DNA from: an uncultured Blautia sp.
Lineage (GTDB): Bacteria; Bacillota; Clostridia; Lachnospirales; Lachnospiraceae
NCBI GenBank assembly: GCA_900551465.1
Contig: URWL01000138.1
Span: forward strand, 1 to 6,030
Length of the DNA stretch: 6,030 nucleotides
Direction of reading: 5' to 3'
The notes under the pieces were generated by a model that had not been told where the DNA came from, made no database searches, and saw nothing but the letters and a program-made list of their open reading frames with translations. This document shows, piece by piece, positions 1-5,290 of this stretch. The first letter of the stretch is position 1. Each line of letters starts with the position of its first letter. The translations under genes were made by a program, and so were the position numbers.

Positions 1-609
1 ATGCTATGTGCGATTACTTATGTCACTATGGTTGTTGGCAGGATTCCTATTATTCTATTCTTAAAGTATGACCCATCAGATGTTATTGTAACTTTAGGTG
101 GTTTTATTTGGGGGCCGATGACTTCCTGCATTGTATCTGTTATTGTAGCAACCCTTGAAATGATTACAGTAAGCGATACCGGAATATTAGGTTGTATTAT
201 GAATATCGTACAAACACTATCTTTTGCGTGTACGGCATCTGTCATTTACAAAAAAAAGCACACTTTATCTGGTGCAGTGATTGGTCTGGCATCGGGATGG
301 CTAATAACGGTTATCGTTATGCTGTTGTGGAACTATTTGGTAACGCCGCTTTATATGGGGTATCCAAGAGAAGCAGTTGTAGAATTGTTACTTCCTGCCT
401 TTCTTCCATTTAACTTATTGAAAGGTGGGTTAAATGCGTCCATTACATTTTTACTGTATAAGCCCATAGTTACCGCTTTGAGAAAAAACGGATATGTTGC
501 TACTTTGGAAAATGAAGCAAGACAAAAGCATACTGGTCTGCTTATACTGGCAAGTTTTATAATAGTAACTTGTGTTTTGATTATCCTGTCAATGAATGGG
601 ATTATATGA
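1..609 (+). CDS. ribU: RibU-like riboflavin ECF-transporter S component (5' end probably outside window)
   Basis: This is the membrane substrate-binding subunit of an energy-coupling-factor transporter, predicted to bind riboflavin. It would need the shared EcfA/EcfA'/EcfT module, which is not in this window. The 202 visible residues are almost all hydrophobic. Five or six membrane segments can be seen, at about residues 1-19, 28-55, 60-83, 88-118, 128-157 and 178-200. The KYDPSD motif (residues 22-27) after the first helix and the PFNLLKGGLN stretch near 136 are hallmarks of the RibU group. The reading frame is open at base 1, and the first residues resemble the middle of helix 1 in homologues, so the true start is probably 10-20 codons upstream. 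The stop overlaps the start region of the downstream flavin kinase gene, which supports riboflavin as substrate and implies cotranscription. Another vitamin S component is possible but less likely. Confidence 0.85.
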   Translation: MLCAITYVTMVVGRIPIILFLKYDPSDVIVTLGGFIWGPMTSCIVSVIVATLEMITVSDTGILGCIMNIVQTLSFACTASVIYKKKHTLSGAVIGLASGWLITVIVMLLWNYLVTPLYMGYPREAVVELLLPAFLPFNLLKGGLNASITFLLYKPIVTALRKNGYVATLENEARQKHTGLLILASFIIVTCVLIILSMNGII

Positions 610-613
610 GGAG
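608..613 (+). promoter_or_regulatory. Ribosome binding site of the flavokinase fusion gene
   Basis: GAGGAG overlaps the ribU stop codon (607-609) and sits four bases before ATG 618. It favours 618 over the in-frame ATG at 606. Because it lies within the end of ribU, translation of the two genes is probably coupled. Confidence 0.6.
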
Positions 614-617
614 CAAA

Positions 618-1310
618 ATGAAAGAAAATATAAATAAGCCTATTTATACACTAACGGGAATTGTTATACATGGTCGAGGTATTGGAAAGCATGTAGGGAC
701 ACCTACCGCAAACATAGAAATAGCAAAAAATACATTTTTGCCAAAGACAGGGGTGTATGTGGCAGATATTCTTTTAAGTGGCAAGATATATTATGGTGTT
801 ACCCATATTGGAACGCGCCCTACGCTTGACAATGATAGCTTTGTTTCAATCGAAACACATATTTTTGATTTTGATAAGGATATATATGGGTGTACGATAA
901 CTGTCAACCTATATAAGAAATTGAGGGAAGTTAGAAAATTTAATGAATTATCCCTGCTACTCGAACAAATTACAAATGACCGGATAATGGCACAAGAATT
1001 TTGGGGATTAAAGCAAACAAATCACACCTTACACATTGATATTAACCGGCATTGTGTAATATTAGAACAGCAGGAAGTTTATTTATCAACAAATGAATTT
1101 GAAGTCCTTTATTTGCTACTGCAATCTCCTCAAACCACATTCACAAAAGAACAGATTTATGAGCAGATTTGGCATGAACCTACAAATAACCATTTGCACG
1201 CAGTAGAAAACACGATTTTTCAAATACGGAAAAGGTTAAAACCTTATTGTAAGGGACATAGGTATATAAAAACAGTAATTGGCTATGGTTATAAATTTAA
1301 TTCCGAGTAA
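618..1310 (+). CDS. Riboflavin kinase fused to OmpR/PhoB-type winged-helix DNA-binding domain
   Basis: The 230-residue protein has two domains. Residues 9-125 form a bacterial flavokinase (riboflavin + ATP to FMN). The visible motifs are GRGIGK (19-24), GTPTANI (27-33, whose Thr/Asn bind Mg-ATP in this family), GVTHIGTRPT (60-69) and ETHIFDFD (79-86), which carries the presumed catalytic Glu79. The FAD-synthetase domain that precedes the kinase in RibF enzymes is absent. Residues 136-228 form a complete OmpR-type winged helix: an N-terminal strand region, LSTNEFEVLYLLL (156-168), a recognition helix around 194-208, and the wing hairpin ending VIGYGYKF. No receiver domain is present. I chose ATG 618 because GAGGAG (608-613) lies just ahead. 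ATG 606, which overlaps the ribU stop as ATGA, is in frame and would add four residues. Pairing with RibU suggests riboflavin capture. Regulation by the second domain is inference. Confidence 0.88.
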   Translation: MKENINKPIYTLTGIVIHGRGIGKHVGTPTANIEIAKNTFLPKTGVYVADILLSGKIYYGVTHIGTRPTLDNDSFVSIETHIFDFDKDIYGCTITVNLYKKLREVRKFNELSLLLEQITNDRIMAQEFWGLKQTNHTLHIDINRHCVILEQQEVYLSTNEFEVLYLLLQSPQTTFTKEQIYEQIWHEPTNNHLHAVENTIFQIRKRLKPYCKGHRYIKTVIGYGYKFNSE

Positions 1311-2977: not shown

Positions 2978-3484
2978 TCAGTTTACATCTGCCAGAAGAA
3001 TCGAAGGTTTTGCCATCAGCGCTCTTGCGATTGCCACCCGCTGCCGGCCTCCGCCGGACAGTTCATGGGGATACGCCGTAAGTCTGTCTTTGATCTGCAG
3101 CAATTCCGTGATCTCCTGAAAAAATACCGGATCCGGCCCGGAACCTGCCAGACTTAATGGAAACAAAATATTTTCCTGAATGTTAAGCGCAGGAATCAGG
3201 TTGAAATTCTGATACACAAACCCCACCTTGTTCCTGCGAAATACTGCAAGCTCCTTTTCCTTCAGACCAGACAGGTTTACACCGTCTACGATCACTTCCC
3301 CTTCATCGGGAATGTCCAGTCCGCCCATCATGTTCAAAAGAGTGGTCTTGCCGGAGCCAGAGGCTCCGATGATCGCGGTAAATTTGCCTTTTTCGATGGC
3401 AAGGTCAATGCCGTTTAACGCCTTTACCTGTCCCTCTCCTTTTCCATAGGTTTTATGCAGATTTTTTACAGTTAAAATATCCAC
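2978..3484 (-). pseudogene. Bce-like ABC-transporter ATPase, truncated in Walker B
   Basis: This is the N-terminal 166 residues of a lipoprotein/antimicrobial-peptide-type ABC ATPase (MacB/BceA/LolD group, normally about 225-255 residues). Intact parts are the Walker A GASGSGKTT (40-48), the Q-loop YQNF (91-94) and the signature LSGG (142-145, followed by GRQR rather than the common QQQR). The Walker B strand SILLAD is reached, but the expected EPTGNLD is replaced by VN and a stop. The catalytic Glu, D-loop and switch His are therefore absent, and the product cannot hydrolyse ATP normally. The start is taken as GTG 3484, because homologues begin with this xDILTVKNLHKTYG sequence and AGAGG lies eight bases ahead. 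The frame is open back to an ATG at 3574, giving an atypical basic extension. It lies downstream of, and codirectional with, a histidine kinase. The partner permease is not in the window. Confidence 0.85.
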
Positions 3485-3578
3485 TTCCTTTTCCTCTCTC
3501 CCTCTGTAGTTTCTATCTCTTATAGCATTCTCTGTCTTTACTGATCTCTTCCTTTTTTGGAAAGCGTTCACCATAGGA

Positions 3579-4601
3579 TCAGCTTAATAAATACACGGAA
3601 AAGGTCGTTCCCTCTCCCATTTTCGATTTCACGCTGATATATCCCTTTTGACGGTTGATAATGCCATTTGCCAGATACAGCCCAAGACCGACTCCTTCCT
3701 GCTGCGCGGCCTCCTCCGCCCTGTAAAACCGCTGAAAAACATCCTGATAATGGGCTTCCGGTATGCCCATTCCTGTATCCTTAATGTCAATGCGGGTATA
3801 AAACTGCCATGGTCGTACCATGATGGACACATGGCCGCCCGCCGGCGTATATTTCACAGCGTTATCCAAAATATTTCCCAGAGCCTCCGCCGTCCATTTC
3901 GTATCGTGCTGTACCGTAATCTCCGGATCGCATTCTACAGAAATCTCAATACCTTTCCCCTCTGCCTTGGCCCACACGGCACTCATTGCCTGTGCAATGG
4001 TTTCATGGAGCCGCCCTTCCACCGGATGCAGCACAAATGTCCCTGTTTCCAGTCTGGACATATGAATCAGAGACTGTATAAGGAAATCCAGCTTATCGAT
4101 CTGTTCTTCTAACGTTGTCAGAAATATCTGTCTTTTTTCTTCTGTAAGATTTGGCTTTTGCAGGATCCCGGAATACAGCTTCATATTTGCCACAGGAGTC
4201 TTTACCTGATGGGAAATATCACTGACAAGGCTCTGCAGGATCTCCTTGTCCTTCCGGCTCTGCATTCTTCCCTCCTGCATAATATCATAATACTGCAGAA
4301 GCTTTCCCTGCACCTTTGCAGTCAGGGAGTCTTCATAGGGCTGAAAATATTCCGGCTGACGTCCTGCAATAGCTGCATCCAGCGTCTCACAGATATCATC
4401 CGAAAACTGTTCGATCTGTCTCCTCTTTAATGCAGACCACAGAAAATTTAAGAGAACAATTCCCCCGCAGACTGCCAGAATCCCATAACGTACGGAAGCT
4501 CTCGGTACATACTCCCATAAAAGCCAGAACAAAAATCCCACAAGAACCGTACCTAATAAAAACAGAGCGGCAGACAGCCATCTTGTCTGTTTCTTTTTCA
4601 T
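3579..4601 (-). CDS. Sensor histidine kinase, intramembrane-sensing (BceS-like)
   Basis: This 340-residue membrane kinase has two N-terminal helices (about 9-29 and 38-57) separated by a loop of only about ten residues. There is no extracellular sensor domain, which is the layout of intramembrane-sensing kinases that usually receive their signal from a Bce-type transporter. The cytoplasmic part is complete: H-box SDISHQVKTP with phospho-acceptor His131, N-box EALGNILDN (Asn243/Asn247), G1 DTGMG (275-279), F-box FQRFYR (289-294) and G2 GVGLGL (303-308). The HQVKTP form of the H-box is typical of the Bce/Psd group. Its ATG overlaps the stop of the response regulator as ATGA (4598-4601), so translation is coupled. 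The transporter ATPase that follows is truncated, which should leave the kinase without its usual sensing partner unless another transporter serves. Confidence 0.92.
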   Translation of the reverse strand: MKKKQTRWLSAALFLLGTVLVGFLFWLLWEYVPRASVRYGILAVCGGIVLLNFLWSALKRRQIEQFSDDICETLDAAIAGRQPEYFQPYEDSLTAKVQGKLLQYYDIMQEGRMQSRKDKEILQSLVSDISHQVKTPVANMKLYSGILQKPNLTEEKRQIFLTTLEEQIDKLDFLIQSLIHMSRLETGTFVLHPVEGRLHETIAQAMSAVWAKAEGKGIEISVECDPEITVQHDTKWTAEALGNILDNAVKYTPAGGHVSIMVRPWQFYTRIDIKDTGMGIPEAHYQDVFQRFYRAEEAAQQEGVGLGLYLANGIINRQKGYISVKSKMGEGTTFSVYLLS

Positions 4602-5290
4602 TGTGCCTTTCCTTTCCAGATATACCCCATTCCCCGCACTGTCTGAATATAAGTGTGGGAAAAGTCTTCAATCTTGGTCCGCAGGCGGTTCATGGTTACC
4701 GTCAGTGTGTGATCGTCAATAAAGTTTCCATCGTTGTCCCATAGCCGTTCCAGCAGAATCTGTCTGGTAAGGATCTGACCTGAATTTTCTGTCAGGATCC
4801 GCAAAAGCTTATATTCATTCGGTGTAATAGACAGTGTTTCTCCATTCCGCTGTGCTGTCAGAGATCCAAAATCCAGTGTCAGAAACCCGTCGCTCCACTG
4901 CACATGATTTTTGGCAGCCTTCTGTCCCTGAGCGCGGCGCAGAGCTACTTCCACCCGTCGAAGAAGAATCTTCATATTAAAGGGCTTTGTTACATAATCC
5001 TCCGCTCCAAGATCAAATCCATCCAGAACATTCTGCTCCAGATCATTGGCAGTCAGAAATATCACAGGAAGTTCCGGGTACATGGTTTTAATCTCCCTGC
5101 ACAGATCAAAACCGTTTCCGTCCGGAAGATTTACATCCAGAAGCACCAGATCCAATTCACTGTTTTTCAGCAGCTGACGGGTTTTCTGACAGTTAAACGC
5201 TGCCATAGAAAGATATCCTTCCGTATCCAATTCAAAACAAAGACCTGTGCTTAATGCCAGGTCGTCTTCTACTACTAATATTTTTTTCAT
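4598..5290 (-). CDS. OmpR-family response regulator
   Basis: This 230-residue two-domain regulator works with the overlapping kinase gene. The receiver domain (1-120) has the acidic pair Asp9/Asp10, phospho-acceptor Asp52 in LLDVNLPDG, Thr80 and Lys102 in the TKPF motif. The winged-helix output domain (about 130-228) includes the ITPNEYKLL segment, the recognition-helix region DDHTLTVTMNRLRTKI and the wing ending VRGMGYIW. All key residues are present, so it looks functional. It starts at ATG 5290, preceded by AGAGGG (5300-5295). It is the first gene of the three-gene operon with the kinase and ATPase. By analogy with BceR it would activate the transporter genes in response to peptide antibiotics, but no target operator is recognised here. 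Confidence 0.95.
   Translation of the reverse strand: MKKILVVEDDLALSTGLCFELDTEGYLSMAAFNCQKTRQLLKNSELDLVLLDVNLPDGNGFDLCREIKTMYPELPVIFLTANDLEQNVLDGFDLGAEDYVTKPFNMKILLRRVEVALRRAQGQKAAKNHVQWSDGFLTLDFGSLTAQRNGETLSITPNEYKLLRILTENSGQILTRQILLERLWDNDGNFIDDHTLTVTMNRLRTKIEDFSHTYIQTVRGMGYIWKGKAQ

Follow-up and report, generated by a model that had tools for sequence, protein, structure and literature searches.

Why should a riboflavin kinase end in a DNA-binding domain of the OmpR/PhoB type? The question is raised by a 230-amino-acid protein encoded on a stretch of 6,030 nucleotides (the window; contig URWL01000138.1, assembly GCA_900551465.1) from an uncultured Blautia species, in which the gene of a kinase–winged helix fusion directly follows ribU, encoding a riboflavin importer component. 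Comparison of the protein and of the DNA upstream of its operon across gut Clostridia suggests as the probable answer that the kinase is fused to a predicted PhoB-type domain which likely binds a tandem site at its own promoter, acting as a predicted flavin-responsive activator. The features of the window that bear on this answer are as follows.

1..609 (+): ribU, the riboflavin-specific S component of an energy-coupling factor (ECF) transporter (PF12822); its first 12 codons lie beyond the window edge.
608..613 (+): GAGGAG, resembling a ribosome-binding site, ahead of the fusion gene and overlapping the ribU stop codon (read directly).
618..1310 (+): riboflavin kinase–winged helix fusion protein, 230 amino acids (open reading frame, Pfam, family alignments).
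645..998 (+): flavokinase domain, amino acids 10–127 (PF01687, E 8e-38; PTAN at 702–713, Glu79 codon at 852–854).
1071..1298 (+): OmpR/PhoB-type winged helix, amino acids 152–227 (PF00486, E 3.1e-18; the first structure model matches the PhoB effector domain 1gxp).
1197..1247 (+): recognition helix, amino acids 194–210, HAVENTIFQIRKRLKPY (both structure models and the alignment of 101 sequences).

In a Pfam scan of the 230-amino-acid protein, Flavokinase (PF01687) scored 129.9 bits against a cut-off of 19.6 (E 8e-38) and Trans_reg_C (PF00486) 66.1 bits against 26.2 (E 3.1e-18). These were the only families matching at E 0.01, and no match to a receiver domain (PF00072) was found. The initial annotation, made from the letters of the window, had read a flavokinase joined to a winged helix without a receiver, and this architecture is borne out, as are its intact kinase residues: the PTAN motif (amino acids 29–32) and the catalytic-type glutamate (amino acid 79) are present, and near-invariant in an alignment of 101 family members. 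The proposed operon with ribU also holds, with ECF_trnsprt (PF12822, E 7.4e-16) backing the reading of 1–609 and the GAGGAG overlapping the ribU stop codon and ending four bases 5′ of the ATG at 618; an in-frame ATG at 606, which itself overlaps the ribU stop, is an alternative start. The window begins at codon 13 of ribU, so the promoter, riboswitch and other upstream DNA were taken from a locus of Fusicatenibacter saccharivorans (L001; loci are numbered L, genomes G and proteins P below), which is 99.95% identical to positions 1–1922 of the window and where ribU is complete and preceded by a flavin mononucleotide (FMN) riboswitch.

The structure of the protein was predicted with AlphaFold2, as the initial annotation had suggested, once from 35 sequences and once from 101, and the best model gained little from the larger input: its mean predicted local distance difference test (pLDDT) score rose from 80.1 (other four models 61.6–62.7) to 81.6 (others 65.4–81.5) and its predicted template modelling (pTM) score from 0.57 to 0.63. 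In the models, the flavokinase barrel ends in a helix at 111–129 and a linker connects it to the winged helix, which has its recognition helix at 194–210 in one model and 193–210 in the other and its wing strands at 217–220 and 224–227. Thus the winged helix, already matched by Pfam, is predicted to be complete, as had been claimed, and the DNA-contacting helix, whose loss would have spoken against a regulator, is retained in both models. Foldseek matched the two halves of the first model separately, to flavokinases (e.g., 5a8a and 1q9s) and to OmpR/PhoB domains, and superimposed the winged helix on PhoB bound to pho-box DNA (1gxp) with a root-mean-square deviation of 1.6. None of the 50 Foldseek matches listed was named as a kinase–winged helix fusion.

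A protein search returned 335 relatives; 120 of them were listed, and 115 of these have both domains. With a profile search the number rose to 883 (120 listed). The whole fusion was found in seven of 60 loci from species genomes, the other 53 matching one half only, so that the suspicion that it might occur in this one contig alone did not hold. The fusion in the window is genuine. Carriers of the whole fusion include Fusicatenibacter saccharivorans (100% identity), Parablautia, Pseudoflavonifractor and Blautia caecimuris. In seven catalogued genomes the fusion adjoins ribU, at 74–100% identity, and searches of 397, 394 and 398 genomes added 12 more carriers, giving 19 carrier genomes in total. 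The genome draws were centred on a Fusicatenibacter genome for the family, which we take to be Lachnospiraceae, and on a Pseudoflavonifractor genome for the order, presumably Oscillospirales; one carrier, G1116, is placed to phylum only. One further copy lies on a Subdoligranulum variabile plasmid record typed as non-mobilizable (L164). G524, with seven internal stops, and G849 and G1025, matched only over amino acids 11–137 and 11–132, were left out of the carrier count, and two genomes whose ribU has a stand-alone kinase, with no winged helix, after it (G103 and G400) served as kinase-only controls.

The alignment of 101 comprises full-length sequences chosen from 153 listed homologues plus the query, with truncated, very long and odd ones excluded. 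Thr30 is conserved in 101, Asn32 in 100 and Glu79 in 99 of the 101 sequences. Within the recognition helix, H194, V196, E197, N198, T199, F201, Q202 and R204 are identical in all 101, position 200 is I or V, and the mean majority fraction is higher in the winged helix (0.773) than in the kinase (0.705). The ratio of nonsynonymous to synonymous substitution rates (dN/dS) was 0.05–0.32 for both domains in nine of ten pairs; in the tenth, L001–L106, dS was saturated. On these sequence estimates, kinase and winged helix alike evolve under purifying selection in the nine pairs with estimable dS. The fusion kinase is an additional copy, since a second flavokinase, in a frame of 299–337 amino acids as is ordinary for RibF, was present in all seven genomes checked. 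Lumazine synthase was not found in 16 of the 19 carriers, some of whose genomes may be incomplete (the control was positive in 14 of 14 known genomes), and for want of it these 16 are predicted to be riboflavin auxotrophs.

The stand-alone kinases of the kinase-only genomes (L108 in G103, L109 in G400) belong to the same subfamily and are 45–48% identical to the fusion kinase, and their ribU–kinase operons are a possible ancestor of the fusion. P0122 (418 amino acids) holds RibU, kinase and winged helix in a single open reading frame, so that the DNA-binding domain would be anchored at the membrane; it is a single sequence and could be an error. Membrane-tethered DNA-binding domains are known from ToxR and CadC.

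Reading of 21 loci revealed, 5′ of the ribU promoter, TTCCGAA-N4-TTCCGAA, a perfect direct repeat of two 7-bp half-sites with an 11-bp period. Repeats of 7 bp with a 4-bp spacer, or 11-bp direct repeats, are the geometry of PhoP and PHO-box sites (PMC9019756). When 21 whole genomes were searched for the exact pattern, 18 of the 19 carriers had a single copy each and the two kinase-only genomes had none; the reversed pattern, used as a control, was present in one of the 21. All 18 exact sites sit upstream of ribU and the fusion gene, and the L164 plasmid cassette has one more in the same place. Among 397 genomes of one family, the site was present in 11 of 11 carriers versus 34 of 386 others (Fisher p 1.2e-11). 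It was absent from all ten other FMN-riboswitch loci of G001–G007 and from 53 other loci totalling 633,170 bases. A variant with a 3-base gap, TTCCGAA-N3-TTCCGAA, occurred in two of the 21 genomes (elsewhere in G003, and in the kinase-only G103) and was taken as chance. The initial annotation had suggested the promoter of the ribU operon as a possible place of action of the protein, and comparison strongly backs this guess: in 18 of 19 carriers a PhoB-like tandem site, which the protein is predicted to bind, lies there as the sole exact copy. Its interpretation is thereby upheld in large part and narrowed to a named candidate operator, with enzyme activity, DNA binding, sign and flavin control as predictions.

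The relation of the site to the promoter was read in 13 non-redundant loci chosen from the 18 carrying it. The TTG of the −35 box lies at one fixed offset from the site in 13 of 13 loci, and the −10 box follows after a 17-bp spacer, its T, A and last T each being present in 12 of 13; unlike the 14 site bases, these promoter bases are not fixed by construction. In L001 the promoter reads TTGCTA-17-TATAAT, with a weak −35. Positions flanking the site mostly hold little information.

Between this promoter and ribU, the FMN riboswitch RF00050 is present in 14 of the 18 carriers with the site and also in L164; in L001 it is followed by a terminator-like hairpin (one found versus 0.4 expected). Four carriers keep the tandem site intact although this riboswitch was not detected before ribU in three of them (G042, G211 and G360) and has shrunk to a remnant of 34.6 bits in the fourth (G368). 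Conversely, both kinase-only operons have the FMN riboswitch and lack the site. The site thus tracks the winged helix, and not ribU or the riboswitch. As a separate observation, an azaaromatic (yjdF) riboswitch lies 3′ of the ribU–fusion unit in G063 (L085 1294–1414, − strand).

Because the site is dedicated, occurs in a single exact copy per genome and is absent where the winged helix is absent, the best reading is that riboflavin uptake is encoded in a self-contained unit, in most copies with an FMN riboswitch, and that this unit is autoregulated by its own kinase. Its position upstream at a fixed spacing from a weak −35 favours activation as the likely sign. Each half-site would take up one of two protomers arranged head to tail. 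The centre of the site falls near −58 relative to the presumed start, upstream of the weak −35 (TTGC..), a position that would suit an activator that aids RNA polymerase. Since the kinase residues are retained, flavin occupancy would be the obvious signal: occupancy of the kinase by riboflavin and adenosine triphosphate (ATP), or by FMN, might alter DNA binding through the helix at amino acids 111–129 that leads into the winged helix. Under flavin shortage the operon would then be switched on, so that RibU and the kinase are produced. With ample FMN the protein would come off its site, and most copies would have a second brake in the FMN riboswitch, which would halt read-through.

Several points weigh against such a flavin-responsive activator. 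The sign of regulation is read from the position of the site alone, and the link from flavin to DNA binding comes from architecture and analogy; the structure models are of moderate quality, with the loop at 24–27 just before PTAN poorly predicted. The 14 fixed bases of the site are conserved by construction, because the loci were aligned on the exact pattern, and a scan for promoter-like sequences in L001 found one versus an average of 1.1 in shuffled sequences, so the promoter evidence is the fixed spacing and not the scan. One carrier, G007 (L007), has no exact site; there the 5′ end of ribU is lost and the winged helix is frame-shifted. Furthermore, 34 non-carriers hold the exact pattern somewhere. 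A background of this order is expected, as the reversed-pattern control was present in 22 of the 397 genomes, and no ribU or fusion was found within about 1.5 kb on each side of the 22 of the 34 non-carrier matches examined (L130–L151). Weaker further sites are possible, since a search allowing one mismatch gave 1 to 10 matches per carrier genome, the exact site included; this search was too noisy to name any further regulatory target. Finally, another regulator common to the carriers could read the tandem site.

One alternative keeps protein and site but reverses the sign: the FMN-bound protein would repress the operon, doubling the FMN riboswitch at the DNA level. It draws on the same tandem-site data, and autorepression by enzyme-regulators such as BirA counts in its favour. 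Yet the site lies upstream of the −35 without overlapping the promoter, the spacing is fixed in all 13 loci and the −35 is weak, which suits activation better, and we regard repression as a minority possibility. It is also unlikely, in our view, that the winged helix binds the site and autoregulates regardless of flavin, the kinase being a tethered enzyme that raises FMN in the host. Control of that kind needs no fusion, and the kinase residues have been kept in 99–101 of 101 members despite a second flavokinase in all seven genomes checked. What speaks for it are free-standing winged-helix proteins of 144–170 amino acids near the unit (L005 5337–5849, 8836–9294 and 13251–13685; L164 1338–1850 and 4855–5289). 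These have a different, GTAVAS-type recognition helix, and the one scanned, L005 8836–9294, gave no receiver match.

That the winged helix is vestigial or serves protein interaction, with the tandem site belonging to another host regulator, appears quite improbable, as the site follows the fusion and not ribU (none in the two kinase-only operons or the ten other FMN-riboswitch loci), the recognition helix is nearly invariant and the site stands at the edge of a shared block described below. Some relatives without the end of the winged helix do fit this idea: 22 of the 120 listed proteins are 400–402 amino acids long, and in all 26 relatives of 400–406 amino acids examined (among them P0006, P0013, P0021 and P0154) the winged helix breaks off after FQIRK and gives way to an unrelated tail with the same start. 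In the four compared in full, this tail is 197 amino acids long and identical. The pattern looks as though a single element had a fixed insertion point in the gene. That the fusion arose in assembly or annotation, or from two genes joined in frame by chance, has next to no probability given hundreds of distinct protein clusters, named isolates and purifying selection in both domains, and is refuted by the whole fusion in seven species-genome loci.

L001, L002, L004, L005 and L164 have a block in common (7033–8693 in L001), which starts one base before the tandem site (7034) and ends with the last base of the fusion stop codon. L002 and L004 share the same block (7028–8694 in L002), so that three unrelated surroundings (L001, L002 and L004) agree on its ends within six bases; L004, L005 and L164 were counted as one surrounding because their flanks are related. 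The matches of L003 and L006 to L001 extend past the block on both sides, while that of the more distant L106 begins only at 7104, after the site. The protein of the window is 92% identical to the Pseudoflavonifractor and Subdoligranulum copies, which indicates transfer. In a scan of ten chosen neighbouring proteins, an actin-like protein and a cytosine methylase were found in L001, a large serine recombinase in L002, and a relaxase and a topoisomerase in L003. An FMN-type nitroreductase lies upstream in five of the 19 carrier loci (L004 5992–7016, L005, L006, L100 and L107), accompanied in four of them by a divergent HxlR-type regulator, and both were also read in L164; being optional, the nitroreductase was rejected as a fixed part of the unit.

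Neither a phage origin of the unit nor its reading as a defence system was retained: a scan of IMG/VR confirmed no relative and PADLOC gave no match. A human faecal record labelled as phage (L165 4905–5249) encodes a stray 114-amino-acid winged helix with the recognition helix of the family, and no kinase, ribU or exact site was found within the 10 kb examined there; L166, from a phage collection, gave a weak match only.

How does the fusion compare with known systems? OmpR/PhoB response regulators have the same winged-helix fold and the same kind of tandem site, but the fusion lacks their receiver and has a metabolic enzyme in its place. BirA and NadR are enzyme-repressors of biotin and nicotinamide adenine dinucleotide (NAD) genes with N-terminal DNA-binding domains. 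They resemble the predicted role of the fusion in that a cofactor-metabolising enzyme controls the genes of its pathway through a fused DNA-binding domain, and differ from it in enzyme, vitamin, domain order and repressing action. Two riboflavin kinases with regulatory roles, RbkR and RibR, share the idea with the fusion but not the parts. RbkR is archaeal, a kinase dependent on cytidine triphosphate and of another fold, with an N-terminal helix-turn-helix (HTH). Like the fusion, it unites riboflavin kinase and DNA-binding domain in one protein; the fusion, however, has a PF01687 kinase, a C-terminal OmpR/PhoB-type domain and an importer operon as its predicted target. In Pyrococcus furiosus, RbkR is named as a potential controller of the riboflavin operon (PMC10746257). 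RibR of Bacillus subtilis joins its flavokinase to an RNA-binding half. It is described as a monofunctional flavokinase that takes part in regulating riboflavin genes (PMC12542839 and PMC7693651). The second half of the fusion matches Trans_reg_C, a DNA-binding type of domain, and comes with a promoter site that is kept where the riboswitch is gone.

Control of ribU by an FMN riboswitch is known in Firmicutes (PMC12934955 and PMC4418817). In the gut Lachnospiraceae member Clostridium scindens, two ribU genes, each with an FMN riboswitch, are both higher in low riboflavin according to a 2026 preprint (PMC12934955), in which the words "winged helix" do not occur. The operons described here differ in having the kinase fusion after ribU and the tandem site before it, with the riboswitch lost or eroded in four carriers. 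Searches of an open-licence library, and passages of PMC12934955, PMC4418817, PMC7693651 and PMC7772410, turned up no account of either the fusion or the tandem site.

A wider proposal, for which we see the balance as even, is that the fusion is a bacterial counterpart of RbkR built from unrelated parts. A flavokinase would replace the receiver of a PhoB-type activator, and flavin occupancy, not phosphorylation, would make the protein bind, head to tail, to a tandem operator of its own. This operator would travel between gut Clostridia together with the promoter, the FMN riboswitch, the importer and the kinase-regulator, as a unit of ~1.66 kb ended by the operator and the regulator gene. Protein would control initiation and RNA elongation, with the protein layer outlasting the RNA layer.

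In the rest of the window, positions 2978–5290 (−) encode a response regulator, a histidine kinase and an ATP-binding cassette ATPase frame that stops soon after Walker B, which together look like an interrupted three-gene system. Positions 1665–2726 (−) encode a 353-amino-acid protein with repeated short HTH-like units and weak Pfam matches only, the best to DUF2525 (28.6 bits versus a cut-off of 27, no single stretch passing).

If true, the reading of the fusion as a flavin-responsive activator would mean that a pathway thought so far to be governed in Firmicutes mainly by the FMN riboswitch also has a class of bacterial transcription factor that senses flavin through an enzyme, and that a metabolic enzyme, in place of a phosphorylated receiver, can drive an OmpR-type DNA-binding domain. 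The comparison provides a precise predicted operator sequence as well as a natural experiment, in which riboswitch and winged helix are each present in some operons and absent from others. The finding bears on the supply of vitamin B2 in the gut bacteria that carry the fusion, most of which seem unable to make this vitamin themselves.
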